Positions 1,359 to 31,096 of a DNA stretch of 64,000 nt are shown here, in pieces. The notes beneath the pieces are model-generated. The model was not told the DNA's origin. It was given only the letters and a program-made list of their open reading frames with translations, and ran no database searches. Origin of the DNA: Hyunsoonleella aquatilis (GTDB lineage Bacteria; Bacteroidota; Bacteroidia; Flavobacteriales; Flavobacteriaceae); the NCBI RefSeq assembly GCF_014270105.1, contig NZ_JACNMF010000004.1, positions 62,001-126,000 of the forward strand. Direction: 5' to 3'. A program made the position numbers and the translations under genes. The number at the start of each line of letters is the position of its first letter. Position 1 is the stretch's first letter.

Positions 1359-1418
1359 GCATTTCATCGATTTTTTTTGCATTTTATAGATTATTTACTC
1401 AAGAATTCTATATATTCG
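1359..1418 (+). promoter_or_regulatory. Promoter region with LytTR-like direct repeats, upstream of the first M14 gene
   Basis: Direct repeats GCATTTCATCGA (from 1359) and GCATTTTATAGA (from 1379) are spaced exactly 20 bp. TATATTCG at 1411-1418 fits a Bacteroidota -7 box, 33 bp upstream of the ATG. The same arrangement occurs at 7915 and 26632. Two repeats of about 10 bp, two helical turns apart, are the architecture of LytTR-domain binding sites; assignment to such a regulator is inference. Confidence 0.5.
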
Positions 1419-1450
1419 TGCCTAAATAATTCATTATAATCCCAAATCTG

Positions 1451-4400
1451 ATGAAAAAAATTACTCTCCTAAGTATTCTTTTGCTAACAATAGCACAGAT
1501 AACCCACTCTCAGGAAATTCTTAAAAGAGTTTCTATTTCAAACATTAATTCATCGACCATTGAACAACTTGATGCCCTAGGTATCGATATGACCTGTGGC
1601 GCAATCCTTCATAATCATAATTTAACATTAGAACTGACGGAACACCAGTTGCACCAATTAGAAAACAAAGGTTTGATATATAATGTGTTGATTGACGATA
1701 TGACGAAGTTTTATAGTGAAAGGGCCATTAGAAACTTGCCCCTGGCTACAGCGGAAGTGGAAAGGCAGAAAAGTCTTAAAAGAGGAAAGTTAGCGCTAAA
1801 ACAGAATAACAAACTAACATCTAAGTCTTTAACAATCAATGAGTTGCTTAACAACTTAGGACAGTACGATGAATGCGATGAGATGAATTGGGAAGTTCCT
1901 GACAACTGGAATTTAAATGATTCTGATAGCTATCCAAATGAAACTAATCATTTTGGCGGTTGTCTTACCTATGATATGGTTTTACAGGAGCTGGATGACA
2001 TGAAAAGGTTATATCCAAATCTTATTTCTACAAGAAAAAATGCGTCACCAACTAATCAATTAACGGTTGAAGGCAGGACAGTGTGGTTTGTTCGCATATC
2101 CGACAACCCGGAGATGGATGAGCCTGCCGAACCAGAAACACTTTACCAATCTTTAATTCATTCGCGTGAAGCAGCTTCCATTATGCAGTTGCTTTACTAT
2201 ATGTGGTACTTATTAGAAAATTATGAATCTGATGATGCCATTAAAAACTTGGTGAATAATCATGCGATGTATTTTATCCCTGTCTTTAACCCAGATGGTT
2301 TTGTTTATAATGAAACCGTAGCCCCAAATGGAGGTGGCGGTCAAAGAAAAAACAGAAATACCAGTGGTGGATGTGGCACCTACGATGAAGGCATCGATTT
2401 AAATAGAAACTCTGCATACTATTGGGGTAATGGAGGTGCTTCTACTACTAACTCATGTAGTTCGACTTATGCTGGTTCAGGACCATTTTCTGAGAATGAA
2501 ACACAGATTATGCGTGATTTCTTCATGCAGCATGATTTTAAATTAGCACTAAACCACCACTCATTTAAAAATGTGATGCTTCACGGCTACGCAGGAACAA
2601 ATATAGACAATCCAAGGCCGGACGAATACTCAAAGTACAACCATGACATGACATTCTATAATCGTTATGGTTACGGACCAAGTACATCTATCAGCAGTTT
2701 GAACAGTGGTAATATGAACGACTGGATGCTAGGTGGCCCCGCTGGCGTTAGCGCCAATGGTACACCAACTGGCATAGGATCAGGAAAGCACACCTTATCT
2801 TGGACACCCGAAAATGGGGCCGGCTCAGAAGGCACTGGTGGTACTTATGGGGGGTTTTGGCCAGACCCAACTAATTATTTGCCCATTGCCCAACGCGCAA
2901 TGCGTGCTAATTTTTTGGCAGCTTATTTCAGTGGGAAATATGCAAAGCTTCATGACCTAAACCAATCAGATATAACTAGCACATCTGGAAACTTAACCTT
3001 TGGCATTGAAAACTTGGGTCAAAATGGTAACGATACAACACCAGATACAAATAATTTTACGGTAACCGTTACGGCCGTTACACCCAATATTACAATAAAC
3101 ACAGCAAGTGCCAGCCAAAATTTCACATCTTCTGAAATTTTAGCCCAAAAAACTGTGGATATCAGCTATACTTTGGACGGGGGTATTGCGGCAAATGACG
3201 AAATTCAATTTAAAGTTGTACTTACAAATGATTACGCCTCCGATAATGTTTTGTATGAAACTATCATTACCAAAATATATACACCTACAATATTATCGAC
3301 ATTAGATCCAACAAATTTCAGTAATTGGACCAGTTCTGGATCGTGGTCTTCAGTAACAGATGGCTTCAATGACGCCTCCGCAATCAGATCTAACGCTTCT
3401 ATTCCCTATTCTAACAATCTTAACAACCAAACGTTGCAATATAATGGGACCCTAAACTTCAGTGGCATTCAATCTGCAGTGATTCAATTCTACGGAAAGT
3501 GGGATTTAGAGCGCAGCTTTGACTATGTTCAAATCGAGGCATCGGCAAACGGTTCCACAGGCTGGACTCCATTATGCGGAAGATTGACCAAGCCTGGTTC
3601 GGAAGATCAGGATTCCCAAACCGGATCACGCTACTCTCAAAAGAGTACTACAAATATAAACTTCCAACCTGATGGTGAGCAATTGTATGATGGAGATACC
3701 CAAGACAAATGGAGTATGGAAGAAATAGTTATTGATGCATCCACAAATTCGGCATTCCTAGGGGATAGCTCCGTATTTATTCGGTTTGTATTCCATACCG
3801 ATTCCTCAAACCGACAAGATTCTTACATCAATGCAAATTTTGAAGGATTTACCTTTGATGATTTTAAGGTTATCGGCATTGGATGTTCTACCGCTGTACC
3901 TACAAACATCGCGGCATCGAACATAACAACGGATGCAGCTACTGTTAATTGGGACGAAGTATTCAACAACACCTATGATTTAAGATATAGAGTTAACGGT
4001 ACTTCAACATGGGCGAATGTATCAGATTTTAACACCAACAGCAACGCACTTAGTGGTTTAACTCCCGGCACGACATACGATGTTGAAATAAGAAGTCAAT
4101 GTGGCACAAGTACAAATTCTGCCTATAGTGCTACATTTAATTTTTCAACATTGGCTTGTGACCCTCCGAGCAACATAACAGCATCGGATATTGGGCTTTC
4201 TACAGTAAGAATACATTGGGACGATATCCCAGATGCTACATATGATGTAAGATACAGAGAGAATGGAACTTCAACTTGGACTTCTACCTCAAGTACCAGC
4301 TTGGTTTTAGATCAACCTGTTTACAATATCTCAGGGTTAAGCGAGGCTACAACATACGAAGTACAAGTGAGAACGGGTTGCCCTGGTAGTGGTAATTCGT

Positions 4401-7400
4401 CCTACAGTACCTCTGTACTATTCACTACATTGGGCTGCGTAGCTCCAAGTAATATTACGGCTTCTGAACTTTTCATTGATAGTGCTAACATTACTTGGGA
4501 TGATATTGACGGCGCAACCTTCGATGTTAGGTATAGGGAAAATGGCACATCCCCATGGACTACGGTTTCCAATCTTGATGACAATGCATACAATATACCC
4601 AACCTAGACCCAAATACTACGTATGACGTTCAGGTAAGAACGGATTGTAGCTCTTCCTCTTCATCTTATTCGTCAACCGTAAACTTTACAACATTAGCCT
4701 GTACGGCTCCAACAAACGTGACCGCAGATGATGTTACGTCATCTAGTGCCACCATAAATTGGGACGAGATTGTGGGCTCCGATTATGATTTAAGATTTAG
4801 GGAAACGGGCACATCGACTTGGACAAATATCAGCGATAGAGCTTTAAATTTTTACAATATTCCTAATCTTGTGGCCGCAACCGAATACGAGGTTCAAGTG
4901 AGAACGGTGTGTACTGCTTCAACAAATAGTGCGTATACAGCTTCAACGGTATTTACAACTTCAGCATGTGATGACGTCGTAAGTGCATTCCCCTATGCTG
5001 AAAGCTTTGAAAGTGGTTTTGGCCTATGGGTCCAAGAGTCCAGCGATGATATTGATTGGACAAGAATCTCTGGATTAACACCATCTAATACATCTCCTGA
5101 TGTTACCGGGCCTTCTGGAGCGGTAGATGGTAGTTTCTATGCCTATACGGAGTCTTCTGGGAATGGAACCGGCTATCCTGATATGGATGCACTTTTAACC
5201 AGTCCATGCCTTAATTTTACAGGTTATGAAAATGCTCAATTGACTTTCCAATACCATATGTTTGGTTCTACCATGGGAGATCTTTACGTAATTGTTAGTA
5301 CTGATAATTTTCAATCCTCCAACGTTACCGTTTTTACCCAGTTGGGCTCACCTTCGTCTCAGACTTCTGGAAATAGTGATCCATGGGAACCAGCTACTAT
5401 TGATTTATCTGCTTATGACGGGCAAACTATTAAGATTCGTTTCTTTGGTGAAACTGGTTCAGGTTTTAGGAGTGATATCTCTATAGACGATATTAATGTT
5501 TCTGCAGATGTTATTTCATCAACAACCTGGTATGCAGATACAGACTCTGATGGTTTTGGAGATCCAAGCGTAAGTCAGGTTGCAGGCTCGCAACCGGCAG
5601 GTTATGTAGCAGACAATACAGATTGTGATGATGGCGATCCAAACGAGTTCCCAGGGCAGACCTGGTATTTAGATGCTGACGGCGATGGGTATAGCGAAGG
5701 TACCTCAACCACTGTTTGTGAGCGTCCAACAAATTATTATACAGCAACCGAACTAACAGCAACATCTGGTGATTGTGACGATACCGATGGTACCGTGAAC
5801 ACGCCTCAGCAATACTACGTGGATGCGGACGGTGACGGATTCGGATCGACCACTACGGCGATGCTTTGTGAATCAACAGCGCCTGCCGGATATAGCGACA
5901 ACAACACCGATTGTGATGATACCGATGGTACCGTGAACACGCCTCAACTTTATTACGTTGATGCTGACGGTGACGGCTTTGGTTCAACGACCACGGCGAT
6001 GCTCTGTGAATCAACAGCACCTGCCGGATATAGCGACAACAACACCGATTGTGACGATACCGACGGTACCGTGAACACGCCTCAACAATACTATGTAGAT
6101 GCTGACGGTGACGGATTTGGTTCAACTACTACGGCGATGCTCTGTGAATCAACAGCACCTGCCGGATATAGCGACAACAATACAGACTGTGACGATACCG
6201 ATGGTACCGTGAATACACCACAGCAATACTATGTGGATGCGGACGGCGACGGATTCGGATCGACTACCACGGCAATGCTTTGTGAATCAACAGCACCTGC
6301 CGGATATAGTGACAACAACACCGATTGCGACGATACCGACGGTACCGTGAACACGCCACAGCAATACTACGTGGATGCGGACGGTGACGGATTCGGGTCG
6401 ACTACTACGGCGATGCTCTGTGAATCAACAGCACCTGCCGGATATAGTGACAACAACACCGATTGTGACGATACCGATGGTTCCGTGAACACACCTCAAC
6501 AATACTATGTAGATGCTGACGGTGACGGATTCGGGTCGACTACTACGGCGATGCTCTGTGAATCAACAGCACCTGCCGGATATGCAACGAACAACACCGA
6601 TTGTGACGATACCGATGGTACCGTGAACACGCCTCAACTTTATTACGTTGATGCTGACGGTGACGGATTCGGGTCGACTACTACGGCGATGCTCTGTGAA
6701 TCAACAGCACCTGCCGGATATGCAACGAACAACACCGATTGTGACGATACCGATGGTTCCGTGAACACACCTCAACTTTATTACGTTGATGCTGACGGTG
6801 ACGGATTCGGGTCGACTACCACGGCGATGCTTTGTGAATCAACAGCACCTGCCGGATATAGCGACAACAATACAGACTGTGACGATACCGATGGTACCGT
6901 GAATACGCCTCAACAATACTATGTAGATGCTGACGGTGACGGATTCGGATCGACCACTACGGCAATGCTTTGCGAATCCTCCGCACCTGCCGGATATAGC
7001 GACAACAATACAGACTGTGACGATACCGATGGTACCGTGAATACGCCACAACTTTATTATGTGGATGCGGACGGTGACGGTTTCGGATCGACCACTACGG
7101 CTATGCTCTGTGAGTCAACGGCCCCTGCCGGATATAGCGACAACAATACAGACTGTGACGATACCGATGGTACCGTGAACACGCCACAACTTTATTATGT
7201 GGATGCGGACGGTGACGGTTTCGGATCGACCACTACGGCAATGCTTTGTGAGTCAACGGCCCCTGCCGGATATAGTGACAACAATACAGACTGTGACGAC
7301 TCGAACGGATCCATCAACAGCCCGATTACTTATTACGAAGACAATGATGGTGATGGCTTCGGATCTACAGTAACGGTGGATTTGTGTGAGACCACGGCAC

Positions 7401-7804
7401 CTGCAGGGTATTCCACTGACAATACAGATTGTGATGACGGGGATAATACCATTTACCCTGGTGCCCCAGAAATAACAGATGATGGTATTGACCAAGACTG
7501 TGATGGTTTCGACCAAACTACATTAACCGATGAAGAAACATTAGAACTTACCGATATATCTATGACTCCAAATCCGTTTGCCGATAACATAAGTATTTCT
7601 GTGCCTTTGAGCTTTAACAATAGCGACTTCAGCATTCAACTATTTGATGTAAATGGAAGAAAAGTTATAGAGAGAAGGTATACCAGTAGAAATGGCAAAA
7701 TTGATGTCGTTGACTTGAACAAACTGGAACAAGCAACCTATTTGGTGAAAGTTACCAATATCAAAACAGGACAAAGCTTTAGAAGAAAATTAGTGAAATT
7801 CTAA
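1451..7804 (+). CDS. Secreted M14 zinc carboxypeptidase with FnIII, MAM and MopE-like repeats, T9SS substrate
   Basis: A 2117-residue exported protein. After a signal peptide (MKKITLLSILLLTIAQITHSQ) comes an M14 carboxypeptidase domain at about residues 150-490, with the zinc motif HSRE (H237, E240), the third zinc ligand in NHHSF (H369 or H370) and the catalytic glutamate in WTPENG (E454). Then follow a jelly-roll-like region (about 610-810), four fibronectin type III domains (about 815-1170), a MAM domain (about 1175-1350), fourteen calcium-binding MopE/thrombospondin-3-like repeats (about 1355-2010) rich in DxDxDG and CDD motifs, and a T9SS type A sorting domain (about 2034-2117, starting MTPNPF). 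It should cleave C-terminal residues from peptides while attached to the cell surface. The substrate is unknown. A paralogue with the same catalytic domain but other repeats lies at 18989-26476. The ATG is 33 bp after a promoter-like element. Confidence 0.92.
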   Translation: MKKITLLSILLLTIAQITHSQEILKRVSISNINSSTIEQLDALGIDMTCGAILHNHNLTLELTEHQLHQLENKGLIYNVLIDDMTKFYSERAIRNLPLATAEVERQKSLKRGKLALKQNNKLTSKSLTINELLNNLGQYDECDEMNWEVPDNWNLNDSDSYPNETNHFGGCLTYDMVLQELDDMKRLYPNLISTRKNASPTNQLTVEGRTVWFVRISDNPEMDEPAEPETLYQSLIHSREAASIMQLLYYMWYLLENYESDDAIKNLVNNHAMYFIPVFNPDGFVYNETVAPNGGGGQRKNRNTSGGCGTYDEGIDLNRNSAYYWGNGGASTTNSCSSTYAGSGPFSENETQIMRDFFMQHDFKLALNHHSFKNVMLHGYAGTNIDNPRPDEYSKYNHDMTFYNRYGYGPSTSISSLNSGNMNDWMLGGPAGVSANGTPTGIGSGKHTLSWTPENGAGSEGTGGTYGGFWPDPTNYLPIAQRAMRANFLAAYFSGKYAKLHDLNQSDITSTSGNLTFGIENLGQNGNDTTPDTNNFTVTVTAVTPNITINTASASQNFTSSEILAQKTVDISYTLDGGIAANDEIQFKVVLTNDYASDNVLYETIITKIYTPTILSTLDPTNFSNWTSSGSWSSVTDGFNDASAIRSNASIPYSNNLNNQTLQYNGTLNFSGIQSAVIQFYGKWDLERSFDYVQIEASANGSTGWTPLCGRLTKPGSEDQDSQTGSRYSQKSTTNINFQPDGEQLYDGDTQDKWSMEEIVIDASTNSAFLGDSSVFIRFVFHTDSSNRQDSYINANFEGFTFDDFKVIGIGCSTAVPTNIAASNITTDAATVNWDEVFNNTYDLRYRVNGTSTWANVSDFNTNSNALSGLTPGTTYDVEIRSQCGTSTNSAYSATFNFSTLACDPPSNITASDIGLSTVRIHWDDIPDATYDVRYRENGTSTWTSTSSTSLVLDQPVYNISGLSEATTYEVQVRTGCPGSGNSSYSTSVLFTTLGCVAPSNITASELFIDSANITWDDIDGATFDVRYRENGTSPWTTVSNLDDNAYNIPNLDPNTTYDVQVRTDCSSSSSSYSSTVNFTTLACTAPTNVTADDVTSSSATINWDEIVGSDYDLRFRETGTSTWTNISDRALNFYNIPNLVAATEYEVQVRTVCTASTNSAYTASTVFTTSACDDVVSAFPYAESFESGFGLWVQESSDDIDWTRISGLTPSNTSPDVTGPSGAVDGSFYAYTESSGNGTGYPDMDALLTSPCLNFTGYENAQLTFQYHMFGSTMGDLYVIVSTDNFQSSNVTVFTQLGSPSSQTSGNSDPWEPATIDLSAYDGQTIKIRFFGETGSGFRSDISIDDINVSADVISSTTWYADTDSDGFGDPSVSQVAGSQPAGYVADNTDCDDGDPNEFPGQTWYLDADGDGYSEGTSTTVCERPTNYYTATELTATSGDCDDTDGTVNTPQQYYVDADGDGFGSTTTAMLCESTAPAGYSDNNTDCDDTDGTVNTPQLYYVDADGDGFGSTTTAMLCESTAPAGYSDNNTDCDDTDGTVNTPQQYYVDADGDGFGSTTTAMLCESTAPAGYSDNNTDCDDTDGTVNTPQQYYVDADGDGFGSTTTAMLCESTAPAGYSDNNTDCDDTDGTVNTPQQYYVDADGDGFGSTTTAMLCESTAPAGYSDNNTDCDDTDGSVNTPQQYYVDADGDGFGSTTTAMLCESTAPAGYATNNTDCDDTDGTVNTPQLYYVDADGDGFGSTTTAMLCESTAPAGYATNNTDCDDTDGSVNTPQLYYVDADGDGFGSTTTAMLCESTAPAGYSDNNTDCDDTDGTVNTPQQYYVDADGDGFGSTTTAMLCESSAPAGYSDNNTDCDDTDGTVNTPQLYYVDADGDGFGSTTTAMLCESTAPAGYSDNNTDCDDTDGTVNTPQLYYVDADGDGFGSTTTAMLCESTAPAGYSDNNTDCDDSNGSINSPITYYEDNDGDGFGSTVTVDLCETTAPAGYSTDNTDCDDGDNTIYPGAPEITDDGIDQDCDGFDQTTLTDEETLELTDISMTPNPFADNISISVPLSFNNSDFSIQLFDVNGRKVIERRYTSRNGKIDVVDLNKLEQATYLVKVTNIKTGQSFRRKLVKF
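5801..7318 (+). repeat. Eleven near-identical 138-bp tandem coding repeats
   Basis: Eleven units of exactly 138 bp (46 codons) start at 5801 and repeat in register to 7318; a more diverged unit follows and two diverged units precede. Each unit encodes YYVDADGDGFGS, LCES, APAGY and DCDDTDG, that is one DxDxDG calcium loop and two cysteines. Amino-acid differences are few (QQYY/QLYY, SDNN/ATNN, TVN/SVN), while synonymous differences are shared in blocks between non-adjacent units, as expected from recombination or gene conversion within the array. Confidence 0.95.
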
Positions 7805-7914: not shown

Positions 7915-7963
7915 GCATTTCATCGATTATTTTTGTATTTCATAGAGTTATCCGCTACATTTG
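7915..7963 (+). promoter_or_regulatory. Promoter with LytTR-like direct repeats, upstream of the 2457-residue protein gene
   Basis: Direct repeats GCATTTCATCGA (7915) and GTATTTCATAGA (7935) are again spaced 20 bp. A good Bacteroidota promoter is visible: TTTG at 7932-7935, 20-bp spacer, TACATTTG at 7956-7963. The second repeat overlaps the -33 box, so a bound regulator would contact RNA polymerase directly. The leader from here to the ATG at 8003 is about 35 nt. Confidence 0.6.
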
Positions 7964-8002
7964 GTGCTTAAATAATTAGTCCCAAGCTAAATTTAACCTC
8001 TT

Positions 8003-11000
8003 ATGAAAAAAATTACTTTTTTAATAAGGGTCGGTATACTTATATCAGGTGTATTGCTCTCATTTAATGGATTTTCACAAACATGTGGGTCCACTATTAG
8101 TACATTTCCCTATTCAGAAAATTTTGAGACTGGAGTTGGTGGCTGGACACAAGATACAGGGGATAACTTTGATTGGTCTAGAGACTCAGGAGGAACACCT
8201 TCTACAGGCACTGGACCATCAACTGGCCAAGGCGATACGTGGTATATGTATATTGAAACCTCTTCTCCAAGAATTTCGGGGGACACAGCAAACTTTGAAA
8301 GCCCCTGCTTTAATCTAACAAGTGCAATTGCAGCTAATTTCTCATTTTGGTATCATATGTTTGGTGGTAGCATCGGCTCTCTACATGTTGAACTTAGCAC
8401 GGATAACGGTAGTACCTACCCAAATTTATTATGGTCTCAAACAGGACAAGTCCAAACATCAAATGGACAAGCGTATAATCAAGTTAATTTAAATTTGGCA
8501 GCCTATGTTGGCCAAACCGTAAAAATTAGATTTAGGGGTGTTAGAGGAGCGAGTTGGGATGGAGATATCGCAATTGATAATGTTGGGATGACTGCTACAC
8601 TAGGAAGTTTTCCAGAAATCAACATTCAGGGAAATGCGACCAATATTGCCGATGGAGACACAACTCCAGATGTAAGCGATGATACTGACTTTGGCAACGT
8701 TGATATCACAATAGGAACGAATGCCAATACCTTTACCATTCAAAACTTAGGAACCGCAGCACTTAACCTTACTGGTGGACCTTTGGTTAGTATAACCGGG
8801 GCGCACGCTGCCGATTTTACAGTGACAGCTACCCCTGCCAGCACAATAGCCGCTAGTGGTAGTACTACATTTACCATTACATTTAACCCAAGTGCTTTAG
8901 GCTTAAGAACGGCATCAGTAAGCATTGCAAATGATGATTCAAATGAAAACCCTTATACATTTAGCATTCAAGGTACGGGAACAACACCCAGCCCTGAAAT
9001 AGAAATCGTAGGTAATGGCACAGTTATAAACGATGGTGACACAACGCCATCAACTGCTGACGATACAGACTTTGGTAATGTGAATACTGCTTTAGGAACA
9101 ACAACCGACACCCATACTTTTACTATTAATAACACAGGAGACTTAGCTTTAAACCTAACGGGTACTTCTCCATATGTTACAATATCAGGCACCCATGCAG
9201 CAGATTTTTCAATAACAGCAAATCCAAGCACTCCAGTGGCTATTGCCGGATCCACCACGTTCGATATAACCTTTGACCCTAGTGCCACAGGTATTAGAAC
9301 TGCTACCATAACCATTGCCAATGACGACAGTGATGAAAATCCGTATACCTTTGATATTCAAGGCACAGGAGTTGACCCTTGCAGTTCAACAGTTAGTAGT
9401 TTCCCATATACCGAAGACTTTGAATCCAATACAGTCGGTGCATGGATCCAAGATACTGCCGATGATTTTAACTGGACTGTAAACAGTGGAGGAACGGGCT
9501 CCACAGGAACCGGCCCTAATGCTGCCGGTGGTGGCACCTACTATATTTATACTGAAGCTTCTTCGAATTTTAATAATACAAGCAATCTATTTAGCCCATG
9601 TTTTGACCTTACGGGGGTGGCTAATCCAGAATTCTCGTTTAGCTACCATATGTATGGAGCCGATATGGGCACCCTTAATATAGATGTAAGCACCGATGGA
9701 GGTGCTACCTATGGCACAAACCTTTGGACTCAAACCGGCCAGGTACAAACTGCCAATGGCGATGCATGGATTTCTGTTACCATCAACCTTGCCGCGTACA
9801 TCGGACAAACCATCAAATTAAGAATACAAGGCATCACGGGTAGCAATTATCAAAGTGACATTGCAGTAGATGACCTTGCACTTGCAGATGTAACTCCTGA
9901 ACCCGAAATCAATATTGTTGGAAATGCTACATCGATAAGCGACGGAGATACTACGCCATCCACAACCGACGATACTGATTTTGGTGATGTAGATGTAGCG
10001 ACTGGAACAGATGCCAATATATTTACTATTGAGAATTCTGGCACAGCTGACCTTAATTTAACCGGTGCTTCCCCCTATATATCAATTACGGGTACCCACG
10101 CGGCAGATTTTACCGTTACAGCAACACCATCAACACCAATAAGTGCAACTGGAAGCACAACGTTCACCATAACTTTTGACCCTAGTGCTTTAGGGCTAAG
10201 GACAGCTACAGTTTCTATTGCAAATGATGATAGCGATGAAAACCCATACACTTTTGACATTCAGGGAACGGGTGTTGTACCAAGTCCAGAAATAGAAATT
10301 GAGGGCAACGGAACTGTAATCCCCGACGGAGATGTGACACCTATTGTAGCGGATAATACAGACTTTGGAAATGTAAATACAGTTGGCGCAACACTTGGCC
10401 ATACTTTTACCATTAACAATACTGGTCTTTTAGATTTAAATCTAGTTGGTATTTCGCCATATATTACGATTACAGGAACCAATGCCGCCGACTTTACGGT
10501 AACCACAATACCATCAAGCACTATTGCGCCTGGAAATTCAACCACATTTGTAATCACCTTTGACCCCGGCGCAGCTGGACTTAGAACAGCCACTATAACC
10601 ATAGCAAATGATGATAGTGACGAAAATCCATATAATTTCGATATTCAAGGTACCGGTGTAGACGGACCTCCACAGTATACAGCGTATTATGAAAGTTTTG
10701 ATGCTTCTAACGGCGGGTGGACCATCATAACCTCAACAAATGATAGTTGGGTTTGGACATCAGCCTACCCAGTTTCTGTGACTCTTGAAATTGCAGAGGG
10801 TGGTTTCTGGAGAAATAACAGCTACAATAGCTATGTAAATAATACCAATATTGTTGTTGAAAGTCCCGTATATGATTTTACAGGTTTAGAAAACCTGAGG
10901 CTTAGTTTAGATTTGGAATACGACACCGAAGACAATGTTGATGGAATGCGAATTTTATACTCAGTCTCTGGCGGGCCATTCACCCTTCTTGGTGCTTCCG

Positions 11001-14000
11001 GCTCAGGCACAAACTGGTACGAAGATAATGCATCTGCTTTGGGCACTGATGGCTGGAACGGAGATAGTAAACCTTCTGCTCCAACATTTTCAGGAGCTTA
11101 CAATCATTTTCAAAATGCTACCTTGGATTTGGATGATCTCACCTTTGCCAACCAGAGCAATGTGAGGTTCAGAATAGAATTTTCAAGTGATGGCTCTAGT
11201 ACAGATGTTGGTGTCGCATTTGATAATTTCAAGATAGAAGCGGATCCGTCAACAGTGCTCAACGACGCAACAGTTGCGCCAGCAGATGTCACGTCCAATC
11301 TACGCCTGTGGTTAAAAGCCAATGAAGGTATTTCAGTATCAGACGGCACAGCTTTAACCAGCTGGGAAGACCAAGCTTATGATACAAGCCTAGACAAAGA
11401 AGATGCCAATGCCGCAAGTACTTTGGCACCAATTTACAGAGATAATGCCACTCGAAATATCAACTTTAACCCAATCGCAGATTTTGACAACAACAATACC
11501 GAATACATGAACGGTAAAGGAGGATTCCATTCCCAGGATTACTTTGTTGTGGTAAAAAGTGATGACGTGGTGGATACACAAACAGGTACCTTTTCTCCGG
11601 GGAGACAATTTTCTATTGGTGGGCGTTCCGACGATGCCAACTATCATGAGGACCCCACAGGATTATCATTTGGTAGTGCTACAGGAAGGTATGTAAATGA
11701 AGTGATAGCACATAATATGGGTGCCTATGCCAATACCAGTAGTACACCAGGTGTGGACTCATACGGTAGAGCATTTACATCTTCAAGCGACACTTTTGAT
11801 CATGTTATGATTTTGAACGTTAAGGCCAATGGCGCAAGAACTTCAAAAGAAATATATAAAAACGGTAAACAAATTGATAACACTACCGGTACAACAGGAA
11901 CATCAGGAACAGGTACGCCGCTAAACTATTACGAATTTGACAACTTGTCCTTCCTAATAGGAACTGGCCGAAGTGGAATTGCAGGTAGAACTACCTCTCA
12001 ACTCAATGGTATGTTGGGTGAAGTTATTTCTTATAAAGCTCCTAATTCTGCCTTGAATCAACAGAAAATTCAAAGTTATTTAGGCATAAAATATGGTATC
12101 ACTTTACAGCGCGCCACTTCAACCTTAACGGATTACAGGCAGAATGATGTGGACTATATCGATTCTCAAGGCAATGTGATTTGGGATACAAGCGCCAATA
12201 CTGGTTATAATTATGATATAGCGGGCATTGGTAGGGATGACGCATCCGAACTCAACCAGAAGCAATCCAAAAGCCAGAATGTTGAATCAGACGGCACGGA
12301 TGCCTATGGCCCAACGTTAACCAGCGGATTCTTAACGATAGGACTTACAGATGTCTATGATACCAATAATGATAATATTACAACCAATACCACAACATTT
12401 ACCGACAGACAATTCTTGGTTTGGGGTAATAATGGTGCGGATATCACCAGTGCTCCATTTACTGTAAATGTTGATATGAGTGCAGGCATTGCAGGTCTTT
12501 CAACGCCAGTGACATTTGACGGGATGCAACGCATTTGGAAAGTGGTTGAAATTGGCGGGGATATTCCTTCTTGTAAAGTAAAATTGCCTCAAAATGCCAT
12601 TAGAAATATTTCTCCTCCAGGAAGTTATCTGATGTTTATTTCCGATACAAACATATTTGACCCTACAGCAGATTACAGGGTAATGGTGCCAGACGGCAGT
12701 GGCAACCTTGAAACCGACTATGATTTCAATGGCACAAAGTATATAACCTTCGGTTATGCGCCTCAGGTCATTGTTGAACGCTCTGTTTATTTTGACGGTG
12801 CTTCGGATTATGTTGATATGGATGACAACTTAGACCTAAATACATCCAACTTTACTATTTCTGCATGGATAAAAAGAGATGTAGGTGCTATAAATGCTTC
12901 AATTGTTTCAAAAAGAGATAACGCCTTTACTGAAGGCTACGACTTAAGAATTGACGGCTCAGGCAGATTGTCATTCGCTATTAATGGCGGGGCGGCTACC
13001 CTAACCTCTTCTGTAGCTATTCCCGAGAGCAAATGGCACCATGTTGCAGTAATATATAATAGTGGTACAGCTACATTGTACATTGATGGTGTAGCGGACA
13101 CTAGTGCATCCTCATGGCCGGCACCAACAGCAACTTCACGAAAGTTCTTAATTGCTGCGGCAGATGGATATGATCCAAATACAACTGATTATTTCGCGGG
13201 TAACATTGATGAAGTTAGGGTATGGGATACCGCTTTAACAGTGGACCAACTAAGGTACGTAATGAACCAAGAAATTATGGATGACGCAACACTTGCTCTT
13301 CAATACGGAGATGTGATTCCTACGACTATTTCGAAGTGTGAAATCAGTGCGGTGCCGTGGACCGACCTTGCGGGGTATTACCCAATGTCTGTATATACGT
13401 ATACAAATACAAATGACATCTCAGGAAACAATATCCAAGGCGCACTAAGAAACCTAAATACTGTGGACCGCCAAACTGCTCCACTTCCTTATGAAACTGA
13501 GGCGGCCGGATCATGGGACGCTGCCGGAACTTGGCTAAATAATGCGGATCAAAATTTACCAAATTCACTTTCTATTGTTGATGGCGTTACCCCTATTGAT
13601 TGGAATATTGTGGAAATTAACCACGATACCTATCTTGGTTCGTCCCCAACAGCCGCCAGATCGCGAGATTGTATCGTTCAAGGTTTGATTGTTAATAGTG
13701 GTGATTTACAAGTAAACGGAGATACCGTAGGAAACACTGGTATTGGACTGACCGTAACGCATTACTTAAGAATTGATGGTACGCTAGATTTAGAAGGAGA
13801 ATCCCAATTAGTACAGACGGATCAAAGTGATTTTGATACTGCAAGTACAGGTACCCTGGAAAGGGACCAACAAGGGTATTCCAATACCTATTTGTATAAC
13901 TATTGGTCTTCGCCAGTATCTACTACAAGTAATGCTAGCTATGACGTAACTGATGTTTTCAACAATATTGGATTTCTTACCTCCGGATATAATGGCACAA

Positions 14001-15376
14001 GTTCTCCGGTTCAAAACGCCGATTATTGGATTTGGAAATACGCCAACAGACCAAATGATGTATATAGCGAGTGGCAACATGTTAGAAGTACAGGGTCCTT
14101 GTCAGTAGGCGAAGGCTTCACCATGAAAGGCCCAGGAACGCTAACCGCAGACCAAAACTACATCTTTCAAGGTCAACCAAATAATGGTGATTTCAGTTTG
14201 TCAATCACTGTAGATAACGAATATTTAGTCGGGAACCCCTACCCTTCAGCATTAGATGCCAACCAATTCATTTTGGACAACATTAGCGCTACAGATGGCG
14301 GAACTAATACCACAAATGTGATTAATGGCGCATTGTATTTTTGGGATCACTTTGCTGTAAATAGCCATATTTTAGCTGAATACCAAGGTGGATATGCAGT
14401 TTATACGCTTTTGGGCGGCACTGTTGCCGTTTCAACGGATGCAAGAATTAATGCGACTTATGTTTCAGGAACCACACTACCCGAAAGATATATTGCAGTT
14501 GGACAAGGTTTCTTCGTATCCGCTGTAGATGATGGAGGCATCGCCGGGCTCACACAGCCCATTGTTGGCGGAAACCTCCTGTTTAGAAATAGCCAAAGAG
14601 CTTACCAAAAGGAATTTGTTTCAGGCTCCAACACAGGCTCGGCACATTTTAAAAAGGGAAAATCTAAATCAGCTGCTAAGGCACAGCCTGAGGATACCAG
14701 AGAAAAAATTAGATTAATGTTCGATTCGCCAGGTGGTTATCACCGTCAATTATTGGTTGGCGTGGATAACAATGCCTCAACAGCCTTTGATATCGGCTAC
14801 GACGCCTTTTTAAACGAGGATAATAGGGAGGATATGTACTGGACCATGGACAATTCCAAACTGGTAATCCAAGCTTTAGATAACTTTGATGAGGACCAAT
14901 TTATCCCTTTTGGCGTTAGAATAGACAGAGAAGGCTTAGCCACAATAAGAATTGAAAACCTGGAAAACATTAGTGCTAGTAAAGACATTTTTGTACACGA
15001 TATAGAATTGGATACCTATCATAATTTGAAAGAAAGTGACTTCAGCATAGTGTTAAGCCCAGGCGAGTATAATTCACGCTTTGAAATTACTTTCCAAAGT
15101 AATGTTTCATTGAGTACTGACGATGTAGAAGATTTAAATCTGCAAGTTTATTTTTCAAATGAAAAAGAAAGTATTATAGTAAATAACCCAAAACATACTG
15201 ATATTGAAACTGTGGAAATGTTCAATATTCTTGGTCAATCTGTATTCAGGGCTCAACCTGACAAAATGGACGAGTCTTACCTTGAATTTAAAACAAGACA
15301 GATTCACAAGGGTGTTTACGTTATTTCTGTGGCATCAGAAAATGGTACTATTACCAACAAAGTTTTGATTGATTAA
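8003..15376 (+). CDS. Giant surface protein: MAM, choice-of-anchor D, LamG domains, T9SS sorting signal
   Basis: A 2457-residue exported protein without a recognised catalytic domain. Signal peptide to about residue 26 (GFSQ). Then a MAM-like domain ([11 protein letters not shown]...), two choice-of-anchor D/ASPM-SPD2-Hydin-like modules ([19 protein letters not shown]..., [20 protein letters not shown]), a second MAM-like domain, two more choice-of-anchor D modules, a jelly-roll-like segment (about 890-1085), a LamG-like region with [11 protein letters not shown] that resembles DUF8202 proteins (about 1090-1590), a LamG/concanavalin-like domain (about 1592-1752, [12 protein letters not shown]...SAWIKRD), a long region shared with the next gene, and a C-terminal T9SS-type module. 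Such proteins serve adhesion or polysaccharide contact in gliding marine Bacteroidota; the exact ligand is unknown. It has its own promoter and terminator, so it is probably monocistronic. Confidence 0.85.
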
Positions 15377-15432: not shown

Positions 15433-15465
15433 TATACCCCAAACCTAGATTTGGGGTATATTTTA
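15433..15465 (+). terminator. Terminator after the 2457-residue protein gene
   Basis: An 11-bp perfect stem, TATACCCCAAA with TTTGGGGTATA, 6-nt loop CCTAGA, followed by TTTT. It begins 56 nt after the stop. Confidence 0.8.
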
Positions 15466-15529
15466 AAAACATATTTTGTCGTGCATATAATCTCTTTATC
15501 GAATATATAAAAGTAAAATCAATCGGTTT

Positions 15530-15546
15530 CCTATATTGTCGGCACC
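15530..15546 (+). promoter_or_regulatory. Possible -7 promoter element of the 1061-residue protein gene
   Basis: TTCCTATATTGTCGGCACC spans a TATATTG element that resembles the orphan promoter at 26681 (CCTATATTAGCACC). It lies about 45 nt upstream of the ATG. No convincing -33 box and no LytTR-like direct repeat is visible here. Confidence 0.35.
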
Positions 15547-15583
15547 AAAACTATTTTTTAACTAACCTGCCAAAATCCTACTT

Positions 15584-18500
15584 ATGAAGAACATTGCAAT
15601 TGCTGTAATATTGGCTTTCTCTCTCCTTTTTTGCAATACATTGCAAGCGCAGTTGCACCCCACTCCGGAGTGTGGACAAAACTTCAATTTAAATTGGACG
15701 ACAAGTTCGGCAAGCGAAGATGCATATTGGAGACCGGGAACACTTTCAAATACGTATTCGAATGTTGACGATTCTGGGATAGACATCAAAATAGAATTTA
15801 CAGGTGAAACCAGCACGCTAGGATTTTGGTCTGGACAGACCCCTAAAATAGGAACTCAATCCAGCTATCTTTATAAAGGCATTGATTTATTAACAAACGG
15901 TTTTTCTGGGGAGGGCATAACTTGCACTATTACATTTAGCCAGCCTATTTACGCCCTATCCTTTGACATACATCACATTAATGTTTCCCTGGGGAAAGGA
16001 GATAAATATACCATTAAAGGAAAGGACGTTAATGGAAACGACATCTACCCAAAATTTAACACTTCAGCTCAACCTCCATATACAGTTGATGAAACTACCG
16101 GAATTGTAAATGCTGTGGCAAATTTATCGGCAGGTGAAAATCCCATGCTGGGGGTAAATTTTGCTGACTCCAATTATATCACAAGCATTACTATACTTTG
16201 GGAGGATTGCAATACCTGCAACCCTGAGAGCTTGCATGCCACCGGGATTGGAAATTTCAGTTTTTGCAAACCGCAAACCTTGGATTTTGACGGTACTGAT
16301 GATTATGTTAGTAGATCCTCTTTTTTAGGTGGCCAACAACAAGCAACATTGATGTCCTGGATTAAATTGGACGATTATACCGGTGATTACACCATTATGG
16401 GACAGCCCAACTGTATGCTTTTTGTCGATAGTAATAACAGCCTACGAGCATCCTTAAAAACCGATTCGAGAGGGGACATTGCATCTCCTGCTTTGGAATC
16501 GATGGTTTTGGACGAGAACATTTGGTATCATGTGGCGTTGATTTACGATGGTATTAATGGAAATATTTCACTTTTTATCAATGGTGAAAAAGAATGGGAA
16601 CATACAAATTCGGATGTCGCAAATACAACGCTCAGTAATTCAAGTGAATGGAGTGCATTCGATTTTGAAATAGGTAGAAATTCAGTTTCAAAAGACAACT
16701 ATTTTGATGGCTCAATAAATGAAATAAGAGTTTACAACAAGGCTCTAGCGGAAGCTCAATTACAAGCTCAAATCTTTCAAAAAATAGAATCCAAAAATGA
16801 AAGTATCACAGGTGCTATTGCCCATAATACTATTGAAGGACTATCTTGGAAGGATTTGTTGCTCTATTATACAATGGAAATTTTGGACACTGGCTATACT
16901 GCTGACAAATCTAATTATTCCGAACACGGGCTATTGCACAACATGGAAGAAACCTATCAGGATTTTGACGCACCCCTACCCTTCGTCTCAAAAGAGACCG
17001 CCACAGGCGATTGGAAGAACCCTGAAAATTGGTTGCAAGGAGATGTGTGGGATGCATATAGAGGCTTTCCCGAATATGCTATTTTACAGGTAAAAGGAAA
17101 CTTAGACATCAACGAAAATGCCACAATCTTGGGGCTTATCGTCGATTCAGGCGCTTCGCTATCTGTTAAAAATGATTCGGGCTTATTCAACACCAGTTAT
17201 CTTAGATTAGATGGCACCCTAAGCCTAGAAGGAGATTCTCAACTCATACAAGCTTCGGAAAGTTTGCTGGATCCTTTGAGTTCTGGCGTATTGGAAAAAG
17301 AACTTGAAGGCACGGCGGACAAATACACCTATAATTATTGGGCATCTCCTGTTGGAAGGCAAAGTAATAGCACTAACAATAACAGTTTTACAGTAAAAGA
17401 CATTTTTGCCGATGTTAATTTTTTGGAAAGTGGTTATGACGGTGTTGCGGTACCTCTGGGAATAGCGGATTACTGGATTTGGAAATTCTCCAATAATTCA
17501 GGAAATACTACTGCCACGTGGCAACAGGTAAGAAGTTCTGGAGAAATAATGGTGGGCGAAGGTTTCACAATGAAAGGCCCAGGAACGGGTACTATTTCAG
17601 ACGTGCAAAAATATACACTTCAAGGCAAACCAAATAACGGAACAATTGAAATCAATGTTACCGCCGGTAGCGATTACCTAGTGGGCAATCCCTATCCATC
17701 CGCCATCGATGCCATACAGTTTTTAAAGGATAATAAAAATTTGGAAACAGATGCAAGCATGACCAACGGTACTTTATATTTTTGGAAACATTGGGGAGGC
17801 AACTCCCACATTGCGGATAATTATCAGGGAGGCTATGCCACATTCTCTCTTTCCGGAGGAGTGCCTGCCGCTTCAAAAGGTTCAGACAGCCCTGAAATAT
17901 CAACAGGGGGCACACCCAACGAAATCCCTGGAAGGTTTATCCCTGTAGGTCAAGGATTTTATCTTACGGCGACTTCTAACGGCAAAATTATGTTTAATAA
18001 CAATCAGAGAGTTTTATATCATCAGCCGCAAGAGTCCTCTACAACAAACAAGAAATTTCAAAAACTGGTTGAAGAGGAAGCAGAAGACCCCAGAACAAAA
18101 ATAAGACTTGGGTTTACCTCGCCAAATACCCTAAGAAGACAATTGCTCCTCACTATTGACGAGGATGCAACCCCTGCAATAGATTGGGGCTATGACTCCA
18201 AGTACATCGACACCCAGATTGACGATATGTATTGGATGATCCAAAATCAAAAGCACACCATCCAAGGTACGAATGAAATCAATGAAGAAACAGTGTTTCC
18301 GTTGGGTATCCATACTGATATGGACGGTTTCAATAGCATTTCTATTGACGAGTTGGAAAATACACCAAACGATTTTATAATTTATCTTCATGATAAAGAA
18401 TTGAATACTTATCATGACCTAACCCAGTGGAAATACGAAATCTTTTTGTCCACAGGAGAATACCTCAACCGTTTTGAAATTGTTTTTTCCCAATCTCAGA

Positions 18501-18769
18501 CCTTAAGTGCCCAGACACATTTGGAAAGCGAACAAATAGAGGTTTATTTTTCTAATGAAAAGAACAGTATCGTCATCAACAACCCTTCTTCTCAGATGAT
18601 CGAATCTGTTGAAATGTTCAATATTCTTGGTCAATCATTGTTTCAGCGCGAAACCAAAACCAACAAAAACCATCTTAAGTTTAGCGCCAATCATATCCCC
18701 CCAAATAACTATATTCTAAAAATTGAAACCGAATATGGTACTATAGCCAAAAAAGTAGCTATATTATAA
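15584..18769 (+). CDS. LamG-domain surface protein, T9SS substrate
   Basis: A 1061-residue exported protein with signal peptide MKNIAIAVILAFSLLFCN, cleavage probably at LQAQ. Residues about 30-225 form an all-beta region of unknown family; about 226-400 is a LamG/concanavalin-like domain (LDFDGTDDYVSR, LMSWIKLDDY, GSINEIRVYNKAL). From about residue 470 to the end it aligns with the C-terminal part of the preceding gene product: [48 protein letters not shown] and [10 protein letters not shown] all have near-copies there. The last 80 residues look like a T9SS sorting module. No catalytic motif is seen. It is likely a shorter paralogue of the upstream gene; a glycan- or protein-binding surface role is inferred only from the LamG fold. 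Confidence 0.82.
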   Translation: MKNIAIAVILAFSLLFCNTLQAQLHPTPECGQNFNLNWTTSSASEDAYWRPGTLSNTYSNVDDSGIDIKIEFTGETSTLGFWSGQTPKIGTQSSYLYKGIDLLTNGFSGEGITCTITFSQPIYALSFDIHHINVSLGKGDKYTIKGKDVNGNDIYPKFNTSAQPPYTVDETTGIVNAVANLSAGENPMLGVNFADSNYITSITILWEDCNTCNPESLHATGIGNFSFCKPQTLDFDGTDDYVSRSSFLGGQQQATLMSWIKLDDYTGDYTIMGQPNCMLFVDSNNSLRASLKTDSRGDIASPALESMVLDENIWYHVALIYDGINGNISLFINGEKEWEHTNSDVANTTLSNSSEWSAFDFEIGRNSVSKDNYFDGSINEIRVYNKALAEAQLQAQIFQKIESKNESITGAIAHNTIEGLSWKDLLLYYTMEILDTGYTADKSNYSEHGLLHNMEETYQDFDAPLPFVSKETATGDWKNPENWLQGDVWDAYRGFPEYAILQVKGNLDINENATILGLIVDSGASLSVKNDSGLFNTSYLRLDGTLSLEGDSQLIQASESLLDPLSSGVLEKELEGTADKYTYNYWASPVGRQSNSTNNNSFTVKDIFADVNFLESGYDGVAVPLGIADYWIWKFSNNSGNTTATWQQVRSSGEIMVGEGFTMKGPGTGTISDVQKYTLQGKPNNGTIEINVTAGSDYLVGNPYPSAIDAIQFLKDNKNLETDASMTNGTLYFWKHWGGNSHIADNYQGGYATFSLSGGVPAASKGSDSPEISTGGTPNEIPGRFIPVGQGFYLTATSNGKIMFNNNQRVLYHQPQESSTTNKKFQKLVEEEAEDPRTKIRLGFTSPNTLRRQLLLTIDEDATPAIDWGYDSKYIDTQIDDMYWMIQNQKHTIQGTNEINEETVFPLGIHTDMDGFNSISIDELENTPNDFIIYLHDKELNTYHDLTQWKYEIFLSTGEYLNRFEIVFSQSQTLSAQTHLESEQIEVYFSNEKNSIVINNPSSQMIESVEMFNILGQSLFQRETKTNKNHLKFSANHIPPNNYILKIETEYGTIAKKVAIL

Positions 18770-26631: not shown

Positions 26632-26690
26632 GTATTTCATCGTGTTTTTTAGCATTTCGTCGTATTTTTAAAAAATATTTCCTATATTAG
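26632..26690 (+). promoter_or_regulatory. Orphan promoter with LytTR-like direct repeats
   Basis: GTATTTCATCG (26632) and GCATTTCGTCG (26652) form the third pair with exactly 20-bp spacing in this window, and TATATTAG at 26683-26690 lies 31 bp after the second repeat, as in the promoter at 1359 (32 bp). No open reading frame of note follows on the plus strand; a terminator is reached at 26778. Confidence 0.5.
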
Positions 26691-26696
26691 CACCGT

Positions 26697-26806
26697 GATA
26701 CATCAAAAACGTATTGATACAATAGTTATTTGAGTTAGTCACCTTAAACCCCAAATCTAATTTTCGATAGCTATTTCAAGTCCTGGACCTTGTTCAGGAC
26801 TTTTTT
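26697..26806 (+). ncRNA. Candidate small RNA or decayed leader, about 110 nt
   Basis: The stretch between the orphan promoter and the terminator at 26778-26806 has no start codon followed by a meaningful frame. It contains TTAGTCACC and CCCCAAATCTAATTTT, which resemble the leaders of the two surface-protein genes (TTAGTCCCAAGC before 8003, TCCCAAATCTGATG before 1451). It is therefore either a short regulatory RNA made under the same control, or a promoter and leader left after deletion of a third surface-protein gene. Its 3' end overlaps the last codons of hisS in antisense. Confidence 0.35.
26778..26806 (+). terminator. Plus-strand terminator overlapping the 3' end of hisS
   Basis: AAGTCCTG pairs with CAGGACTT, followed by six T on the plus strand only; the minus strand lacks a T run. 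It therefore serves a plus-strand transcript from the orphan promoter and not hisS. Confidence 0.7.
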
Positions 26807-28170
26807 ATGGTAGAAATTAAAGTATCCAAGGACACTTTTTCCTGAGAGCCAGATACCATATTCTTTAAAGTGTAGTGATTTGCTCCTATTTCGGACTCCC
26901 CTACCAAGACCACAAAAGGAATGTTTCTCCGATTGGCATAGGTCATTTGTTTTTTCATTTTTGCATCATCAGGATATAATTCAGCATTGACGTCCTGTGC
27001 GCGTAGCTGTTTTATCGCTTTTAAACTGAATAACGCTTCTTTTTCACCAAAGTTGATAAACAGCACCTCCACATTTTTTGAAACCGTTTCAGGAAATAAA
27101 ACCAATTCTTCCAAAACCAAATAAATACGATCCAATCCAAAGCTGATACCAACCCCACTCATATTTGGCATTCCGAAAATACCCGTTAGATCATCATAAC
27201 GGCCACCACCACCGATGGAGCCCATTTTTACGGATTCCGGGGCAGACACTTCAAAAATAGCCCCGGTATAATAATTAAGACCACGGGCCAAGGTGACATC
27301 TAATTGTAATTTGGCAGTATTCAGGCCTAATTCTGAAATAGCGTTATTGATGAATTCCAATTCGGCTATCCCTTTTTGGCCTTCTTCAGAAGAGGATAAA
27401 ATGGTTTTCAAATCAGCAATCTGCGATTCAAAATCCCCGGAAATTGAAAACAAAGGTTGCAGTTTATCGATACCCGTTTGAGGAATGCCCTTGTCCAACA
27501 TTTCCTGTTTTACCTTGGCCTCACCTATTTTGTCCAGTTTGTCCAAAGCTACGGTAAAATCAATCAATTTATCAGATGCACCAATCACCTCAGCAATTCC
27601 CGAGAGTATTTTGCGGTTATTGATTTTGATGGTCACCCCTTCCAAATTCAATTTAGAAAACACTTTATCATATAACTGAATAAACTCCACTTCCTGCCAT
27701 AACGAGCCACTGCCCACCACATCCGCATCGCATTGGTAAAACTCCCTAAAACGTCCCTTTTGGGGCCTATCGGCGCGCCAAACGGGCTGGATTTGGTAGC
27801 GCTTAAATGGGAATTCGATCTCATTTTGGTGTTGTACGACGTAACGCGCGAAGGGCACAGTGAGGTCATAACGCAAGGCTTTTTCGGAGATACTCGTGGT
27901 CAGTTTATTCGAATCTTTCGTTTCGTAAGCTTCTGCATTTGCCTTTGACAAATAATCCCCAGAATTCAAAATCTTAAAAATCAAGCGGTCGCCCTCATCG
28001 CCATATTTGCCCATTAGGGTTTCGGAGTTTTCAAAACTTGGAGTTTCAATGGGTTGAAAGCCGAAGGTTTCAAATGCATTGCGAATGGTATTGAAAATAT
28101 AGTTGCGCTTTGCGACCTGCTCGGGGTTAAAATCTCTAGTGCCTTTTGGGATGCTTGGTTTTTGGGCCAT
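26794..28170 (-). CDS. hisS: Histidine-tRNA ligase
   Basis: 458 residues from the ATG at 28168-28170 ([14 protein letters not shown]). Attaches histidine to tRNA-His in the cytoplasm. Class II synthetase features are seen in order: the N-terminal KGTRDF, motif 2 region with [20 protein letters not shown] and [12 protein letters not shown], the histidine-specific [10 protein letters not shown], motif 3 GISFGLDRI, and a C-terminal anticodon-binding domain ([15 protein letters not shown]). The open frame continues 37 codons further upstream to 28281, but that part translates intergenic repeats (palindrome CCTGCGAACGCAGG and the element at 28225-28269) and is not protein. The gene stands alone; its last codons overlap a terminator of the opposite strand. 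Confidence 0.96.
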
Positions 28171-30400: not shown

Positions 30401-31096
30401 ATGACTTTAAACTGTGTAGTAGTAGACGATTCAGCGATACAACGTCTCTCCATAGTTAAGTTAGTCGAAAATCACCCTTCGCTTAACTTAATTGCCGAGT
30501 ACAGTAGCGCTCTCGAAACAAAAAATGGTTTAAATACGCATCAAGTAGACTTAATCTTTTTAGACATTGAAATGCCAGTGCTAAATGGTTTTGAACTTTT
30601 AGACGTATTGAACAAAAAACCCCAAATTATCTTTGTAACTGGCAAAACCGAATATGCATTTAAGGCATTCAACTATGATGCTACAGATTACTTGCACAAG
30701 CCAATTACTAAAGAACGTTTTAACACTTCCGTTGAGAAAGCTCTAGAACAACATAAATTGACATTGGATTTTCATGAGGAAGAAGGTGAGCATATTTTTG
30801 TAAAGAGCAATCTTAAGAAACGTAAAGTATACATTAAGGACATCAAATGGATTGAAGCCCTTGGTGATTATGTTAAACTGGTAACCGAGGAGACTAGCTT
30901 GGTTGTATTATCTACCATGAAAGCTTTTGAAGCGGAACTGCCAGAAAACAAATTTTTAAGAATCCACAAATCTTATATCGTTAATCTTGATAAAATTGAT
31001 AGGTTTAACAGTAAAAATGTGGAAGTTGGTGCTTACGAAATACCACTAAGCCGAAATAAGAAGACACAATTAGTAGATGCGTTAAATAACATTTAA
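30401..31096 (+). CDS. LytTR-family response regulator
   Basis: 231 residues: a receiver domain (about 1-120) with all key residues, the acidic pair D9/D10, phospho-acceptor D55 in FLDIEMP, T80 and K100 in LHKP, then a LytTR DNA-binding domain (about 130-231; VKSNLKKRKVYIKDIKWIEALGDYVKL, IHKSYIVNLDKI). Such regulators bind pairs of about 9-10 bp direct repeats two helical turns apart and usually work with a LytS/YehU-type histidine kinase, which is absent here, so this is an orphan regulator in its locus. Direct repeats of this architecture precede two surface-protein genes and an orphan promoter in this window, making it a candidate regulator of them (inference). It converges with priA, with a single base between the stops. 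Confidence 0.95.
   Translation: MTLNCVVVDDSAIQRLSIVKLVENHPSLNLIAEYSSALETKNGLNTHQVDLIFLDIEMPVLNGFELLDVLNKKPQIIFVTGKTEYAFKAFNYDATDYLHKPITKERFNTSVEKALEQHKLTLDFHEEEGEHIFVKSNLKKRKVYIKDIKWIEALGDYVKLVTEETSLVVLSTMKAFEAELPENKFLRIHKSYIVNLDKIDRFNSKNVEVGAYEIPLSRNKKTQLVDALNNI

Follow-up and report, generated by a model that had tools for sequence, protein, structure and literature searches.

Repeat pairs and the genes behind them

The window, i.e., the whole 64,000-nucleotide stretch of DNA that was analyzed, contains three pairs of direct repeats with exactly 20-bp spacing, all on the plus strand, at positions 1359, 7915 and 26632, where the first-pass annotation had placed them. Pairs were defined by the pattern GYATTTYRTMG-N9-GYATTTYRTMG (half-site of 11 bp, pair score out of 22), and the three were re-found with up to three mismatches, versus 0.09 expected from 100 shuffles. 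The pairs, a weaker fourth one and the genes behind them are as follows.

1359..1389, plus strand: putative operator pair 1, GCATTTCATCG-N9-GCATTTTATAG, spacing 20, with a gap of 21 bp to the -7 box TATATTCG at 1411-1418
1451..7804, plus strand: gene behind pair 1, 2117 aa; zinc carboxypeptidase M14, fn3, MAM, T9SS tail
7915..7945, plus strand: putative operator pair 2, GCATTTCATCG-N9-GTATTTCATAG, spacing 20, with a gap of 10 bp to the -7 box TACATTTG at 7956-7963
8003..15376, plus strand: gene behind pair 2, 2457 aa; MAM/laminin-G/Ig-like, T9SS tail
15471..15501, plus strand: weaker fourth pair, matching at 18 of the 22 positions, 30 bp 5' of the box TATATTGT at 15532-15539 and ahead of the third T9SS gene
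15584..18769, plus strand: gene behind the weak pair, 1061 aa; T9SS tail
26632..26662, plus strand: putative operator pair 3, GTATTTCATCG-N9-GCATTTCGTCG, spacing 20, with a gap of 20 bp to the -7 box TATATTAG at 26683-26690

The distances from pair to -7 box given earlier (21, 31 and 32 bp) were not reproduced, the gaps on re-reading being 21, 10 and 20 bp. The claim that the pairs occupy the same face of the helix holds. Over 71 pair-site loci (13 own plus 28 and 30 from relatives, a subset of all matches in which several are orthologous), -7-like boxes peak at gaps of 10 bp (n = 19), 20-21 bp (n = 14) and 30-31 bp (n = 5). These distances place the operator on one helix face at several positions, as would be expected of an activator, and activation is what we infer.

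In the entire genome, 13 pairs with up to two mismatches were detected, and none with the reversed-pattern control. Among 40 relatives, scanned with at most one mismatch, the pair was present in 20, among them every one of the 12 genomes of the genus, and the control matched in none. In 149 genomes of the family, nearly all from different genera, it occurred in 91, compared with two control matches in total; a stricter pattern with a period of 20 or 21 matched in 32 of the 149 and yielded no control matches. An origin of the repeats in chance AT-rich sequence could be argued from the shortness and AT-richness of the half-site and from the many single half-site matches that fall within genes. 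That origin was rejected on the shuffle and reversed-pattern controls, and, together with the helical phasing and the fixed distance at which sRNA promoters carry the pair (see below), its probability becomes negligible.

The observation of shared repeat pairs was thus partly confirmed, while their earlier interpretation as the switch of one regulon of giant T9SS surface proteins is partly supported and was too narrow. Sites 1 and 2 do precede giant T9SS-tailed proteins, and site 3 does not. Across the genome, T9SS proteins stand behind 2 of the 13 pair sites, and two more T9SS-tailed genes have weaker sites in locus L031; sRNA genes and other genes are found behind sites as well, the latter including those for a hybrid TPR histidine kinase, a protein with a CAP domain and one with leucine-rich repeats.

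The T9SS sorting-domain family has 86 matches across the G000 genome. Upstream of gldK, which encodes a T9SS ring component, two half-sites about 21 bp apart lie on the strand opposite gldK (L028:2470-2512), a possible link from the regulon to the secretion machine itself. Half-sites also occur ahead of the hybrid TPR histidine kinase, which has a receiver domain (L022:2463-2512) and could be a signaling partner. At L009:1501-1531, a pair with two mismatches precedes a gene that by eye resembles an ECF sigma factor, with CCCCAAATCTC nearby on the other strand.

An orphan LytTR protein as candidate binder

The pairs are most likely the operators of a LytTR-type activator, and the best candidate for the protein that binds them is encoded within the window.

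30401..31096, plus strand: P0001, LytTR response regulator encoded by an orphan gene that is flanked by rpsF-rplI and priA

Both domains of P0001 scored above the Pfam cut-offs (Response_reg, 67.9 bits; LytTR, 70.6 bits), while the protein fell below the NCBIfam equivalog cut-offs for BtsR (120.2 of 246 bits) and AgrA (31.3 of 400). A search of solved structures matched mainly the receiver domain, the best match being chain 2qv0_A, named MrkE. The genome contains seven LytTR genes, five of which, by inspection, sit after a kinase-like gene; P0001 stands alone between its neighbors, as the first-pass annotation had described it. Its identity amounts to 98-100% in the 11 other genomes of the genus and, within the set of 40 relatives, to 92-97% in five genera besides its own. 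Such conservation within a genus is unusually high for a response regulator.

The distribution of P0001 follows that of the motif. Among the 125 family genomes that were at least 90% complete, the motif occurred in 80 of the 106 with P0001 and in none of the 19 without it, any genome not listed as matching being scored as absent; in the other 26 of the 106, P0001 is present with no pair at the chosen stringency. A pair with no accompanying P0001 hit was found in two drafts, of 81% and 87% completeness. A different LytTR regulator, most likely the 251-aa protein at G000:C16:417188 (L014 type), might bind the pairs, with P0001 merely co-distributed. In six motif-bearing genomes whose LytTR proteins were classified, P0001 and L014 are the only types common to all; this typing covered 29 of 36 matches and was complete for G009 (4/4) and G056 (5/5), which alone already leave just these two types in common. 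L014 also goes with the motif across the family, occurring in 76 of the 80 near-complete motif-bearing genomes. However, P0001 is present in all 80, so that four motif-bearing genomes lack L014 and none lacks P0001 (n = 125), and none of the 11 near-complete genomes with L014 and without P0001 carries the motif. We therefore regard L014 as an unlikely binder. In a tree of 39 L014 proteins (a partial sequence from G105 was left out, and 17 of 36 inner branches are open), the genomes without P0001 are scattered over several positions, with weak support.

In the account of PMC4847170, YpdB, a LytTR regulator of E. coli, binds a direct repeat in PyhjX, GGCATTTCAT, which includes the half-site core GCATTTCAT. 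According to the same account, nearly all LytTR sites consist of two repeats of 9-11 nt placed 11-13 nt apart, with no consensus common to them. The present pairs agree with this spacing only when the 9-nt core is considered, the period of 20-21 then leaving a spacer of 11-12 nt; counting the full 11 nt of each repeat shortens it to 9-10 nt. The lack of a common consensus could be taken to mean that the likeness to YpdB sites is coincidental and that a regulator of another class binds the repeats, but the YpdB core within the half-site, the direct-repeat period of 20-21 bp and the co-occurrence of a LytTR gene render this very improbable. The YpdB core and the co-occurrence of the gene at 30401 with the motif likewise lend support to the shared regulon that had been proposed, with P0001 as its candidate regulator. 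Autoregulation of P0001 was considered and rejected, as the best pair upstream of its gene scored only 16/22.

A tandem small-RNA family and its predicted targets

A leader element, CCCAAATCT(A/G), recurs in the leaders behind pair sites. Its complement, TAGATTTGGGG, was found at G000:C18, twice in tandem, 3' of a purF-like gene, within two predicted sRNAs.

L038:2621-2705, about 85 nt: first sRNA copy, with CACCATAACATAAGTAGGTTAAGTTYATGG before it and a terminator after it
L038:2851-2935, about 85 nt: second sRNA copy, likewise with CACCATAACATAAGTAGGTTAAGTTYATGG before it and a terminator after it

The predicted folds of the tandem copies have z values of -4.8 and -3.5, and two pairing regions are conserved, CAUAAGUAGGUUAAG in the loop and UAGAUUUGGGGC in the linker. 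A core-pattern scan of public genomes gave at least 118 stretches; the 80 that were listed, mostly from Flavobacteriaceae, contain together with the own locus L038 a total of 124 copies, with 1-4 in each stretch. Among them the core hardly varies. The terminator occurs in 92 different sequences and is hairpin-like in 124 of 124 copies, and CCA..TGG hairpin arms are present in 123 of 124; one copy, L334, looks doubtful. Hairpins were counted copy by copy; RNAalifold missed them when applied to 117 sRNAs aligned with MAFFT, because terminators of different length were misaligned. Neither the L038 copies, which gave only hits with chance-level E-values, nor eight further loci matched Rfam 15 at the gathering threshold. 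On this comparative evidence the family of predicted transcripts is real. In two Flavobacterium genomes, the tandem sRNAs have the Flavo-1 RNA motif (RF01705) at a distance of no more than about 3 kb (L277:3536-3614 and L321:4399-4477).

The sRNA genes look to be part of the same regulon, and the tandem genes to be its targets across the family. At 68 bp upstream of the sRNAs, the mean pair score is 14.4/22, versus 8.1 (sd 0.8) over all positions; in this distance test (117 of the 124 copies), 73 scored at least 15/22 at exactly 68 bp and 24 at 88 bp, one period upstream. The best scores before the sRNAs averaged 17.0, versus 14.3 in dinucleotide shuffles (119 of the 124 copies; P 6e-20, a value that, like the other P values given here, overstates independence, since the genomes and the sRNA copies are related). 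The signal is strongest at the first copy of a run. The first copy of our genome is preceded by GTATTTTATCC-N9-GCTATTCATCT (18/22), 30 bp 5' of a -7-like box, and the pair of the second is weak.

The complementarity between the sRNA and the leaders or start codons of some pair-controlled mRNAs can be read from the sequences; pairing itself is predicted. The linker target lies within 200 nt 3' of 16 of the 71 pair sites, versus none upstream and one on the opposite strand, and 55 of the 71 have no such target downstream. Predicted duplexes were stronger downstream than upstream (P 2e-8), on the opposite strand (P 2e-4) or in shuffles (P 4e-6), and the downstream excess was 4.5 kcal/mol for the sRNA, versus 0.6 (sd 0.6, maximum 1.8) for 150 shuffled sRNAs. 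In the window, where 37 leaders were ranked by their predicted pairing with the sRNA, three leaders behind pairs are concerned.

1441..1453, plus strand: sRNA-complementary leader CCCAAATCTG, reaching the ATG at 1451; predicted duplex about -20.5 (-20.9 at best), rank 7/37
7978..8006, plus strand: leader of gene 8003, with 27 consecutive target nt including the start codon; predicted duplex -29.5, rank 1/37
15577..15586, plus strand: start-codon stretch CCTACTTATG of gene 15584, with complementarity to CAUAAGUAGG in the sRNA loop; predicted duplex -25.9, rank 3/37

The leader of 18989 has a predicted duplex of -20.5 and, like that of 1451, is not exceptional. Elsewhere, the leaders of L006, L007, L011, L031 and L200 show predicted pairing of -25 to -36. 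As many other pair sites are without pairing, the double control would apply to just a fraction of the regulon. The second rank in the window (-28.5, 2/37) is held by 529-613 on the minus strand, the leader of gene 1-543, which runs off the window and has no pair upstream; duplex energy alone is therefore no proof. Between two of the T9SS genes, at 15436-15457, lies the palindrome ACCCCAAACCTAGATTTGGGGT, perhaps a terminator, which contains the sRNA-like linker TAGATTTGGGG and a near-target.

The leader element was also considered as a general genome-wide signal, which was rejected: CCCAAATCTR has 41 matches in the genome, versus 9 for the reversed control, and 29 of the 41 are inside ORFs. 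Of the 12 outside ORFs, which include two complementary-strand copies at the sRNA genes, nine have a best upstream pair score of at least 16, seven of these scoring 17-22; among the 28 scored within ORFs, three reach 16 and none exceeds it.

Candidate decoys, the proposed circuit and known systems

No ORF of 100 aa or more lies on the plus strand behind site 3, where a short stretch and a terminator-like hairpin are followed by hisS, encoded on the opposite strand. A role of site 3 as the promoter of a T9SS gene in the present genome was accordingly rejected. The pair appears instead to drive an RNA of about 110 nt, its promoter being fused to the last eight codons and the 3'UTR of a lost T9SS gene.

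26697..26808, plus strand: predicted ncRNA of about 110 nt (candidate sponge), its start estimated by the position of the -7 box; hairpin of the terminator at 26778-26806
26699..26725, plus strand: fossil last eight codons, YIKNVLIQ-stop, of a lost T9SS-tailed gene, abutted by the pair promoter
26749..26759, plus strand: CCCCAAATCTA, largely inside an 18-nt hairpin loop and complementary to the sRNA linker

In the predicted fold of this RNA (z -3.93), CCCCAAAUC sits in the 18-nt loop. The fossil origin of the putative RNA is apparent from its relatives. Of 20 regions fetched upstream of P0001 orthologues, nine had an element on the hisS side, five with hisS in place (G004, G006, G011, G020 and G024) had none that was recognized, and six gave no judgment. 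A TTATTTGAGTTAGTC-like element, running from start to terminator on the same side of hisS, was found in G001, G002, G005, G007, G008, G009, G017 and G070. Seven of these yielded an upstream frame, and in each of the seven the element forms the 3'UTR of a gene with a tail that scores above the T9SS sorting-domain cut-off. In G075, a pair promoter stands directly before such an element, itself located after a T9SS-tailed gene. The linker target in the element is kept in G001, G002, G007 and G017, and in G008 with an extra A; one base is changed in G075, and the target has decayed in G005, G009 and G070.

A second candidate decoy is represented by L004 (G000:C1:870037), which consists of a pair, a -7-like box, a conserved stretch of about 150 nt for a predicted RNA with CCCCAAATCTA, and a terminator, with no long ORF. 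Unlike that of the site-3 RNA, its target lies partly within a predicted stem. In L004:1620-1646, a possible 9-residue peptide, MLLMWRPQI, was noted, the last codons of which form the CCCCAAATCTAG target; by eye, relatives are similar.

Taken together, these data suggest a circuit that we consider probable, in which a single LytTR regulator turns on three kinds of transcript: T9SS mRNAs, sRNAs that are probably their repressors, and sponge-like RNAs. The activator, most likely P0001, would bind upstream of the -7 box on one helix face and turn on mRNAs, e.g., those for the T9SS-tailed carboxypeptidase and the MAM/laminin-G proteins of the window, as well as the two tandem sRNAs of about 85 nt elsewhere in the genome and short ncRNAs such as the site-3 RNA. 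The sRNAs would cover the leaders and start codons of some of the mRNAs that the same regulator controls, with repression of translation as the probable outcome, so that a brake under the same control as the protein output would form an incoherent feed-forward loop. Titration would be added by the site-3 and L004-type RNAs, which carry the sRNA target and probably act on the sRNAs as sponges. The sites and their phasing, the sRNA family with its promoter pairs, the complementarity and the fossil can be seen in the sequences themselves; the identity of the binder, transcription of these RNAs, the sign of the sRNA action and the sponging are what we infer.

The sRNA could also stabilize or activate its targets, the site-3 and L004-type RNAs then being further targets or vestiges and not sponges. 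Deletion of Rfp18, an sRNA whose relation to the present family is uncertain, lowered two protease mRNAs in F. psychrophilum, as described in PMC9723704, and the decay of the linker target in three of eight relatives would befit a vestige. Against this alternative, the start codon lies inside the predicted pairing in several leaders, conservation of the L004-type RNA does not extend into its flanks (four genomes aligned), and at site 3 the promoter and 3'UTR were kept after the coding part had been lost. This reading is possible, and we would adopt it only with reservations.

The circuit with a repressing sRNA and sponges may be family-wide among flavobacteria, with an orphan LytTR regulator that drives tandem sRNAs, the T9SS mRNAs they cover, and decoys, one of which would be a T9SS gene minus its coding region that has kept the regulated promoter and the sRNA-binding 3'UTR; for this more extensive proposal we see the chances as evenly balanced. 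The control of T9SS-secreted enzymes and adhesins in Bacteroidota is poorly understood, and the present analysis offers a testable candidate regulator, operator, sRNA family and target set common to many Flavobacteriaceae and accessible in harmless laboratory strains. It also makes visible how a putative free-standing sRNA decoy may evolve from the 3'UTR of an mRNA.

In several Gram-positive systems, namely AgrA-RNAIII, VirR-VR-RNA and FasA-FasX, a LytTR-type regulator drives a regulatory RNA. The logic from regulator to RNA would be the one proposed here by analogy, but the RNAs are not homologous, and in the present case small tandem sRNAs, mRNA targets within the same regulon and decoys would be involved. 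SroC is a sponge derived from a 3'UTR, a case in which the 3' end of an mRNA has a site resembling a target and can thereby titrate an sRNA; in contrast, the coding part has been lost in the present species, and the RNA would be driven directly by a regulon-type promoter.

In the open literature, searched mostly at the level of listings, we found no account of this regulon or circuit, nor of either seed in a flavobacterial sRNA. YpdB, as described in PMC4847170, shares with the present system the half-site core and the arrangement in two direct repeats, and P0001 likewise combines a receiver with a LytTR domain. P0001 differs in having no adjacent kinase gene, the period is 20-21, and the targets here are T9SS and sRNA genes. 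Among the multicopy sRNAs of Bacteroidota, the nearest that we found in print are GibS and FopS of Bacteroides, which in the portions of PMC11697453 that concern them bind near start codons by their seeds (two in the case of GibS) and have SusC-type transporters as targets. The FopS promoters are described there as canonical and FopS as deposited in Rfam, whereas the sRNA family reported here has no Rfam match. From Flavobacterium itself, Rfp18 of F. psychrophilum has as predicted targets secreted metalloproteases and a secreted adhesin, secreted proteins like those of the present regulon, in the description given by PMC9723704. By that description, Rfp18 differs in that it pairs via its third stem-loop and raises rather than lowers mRNA levels, its deletion having reduced the two protease mRNAs; it may prove to belong to the sRNA family defined here.
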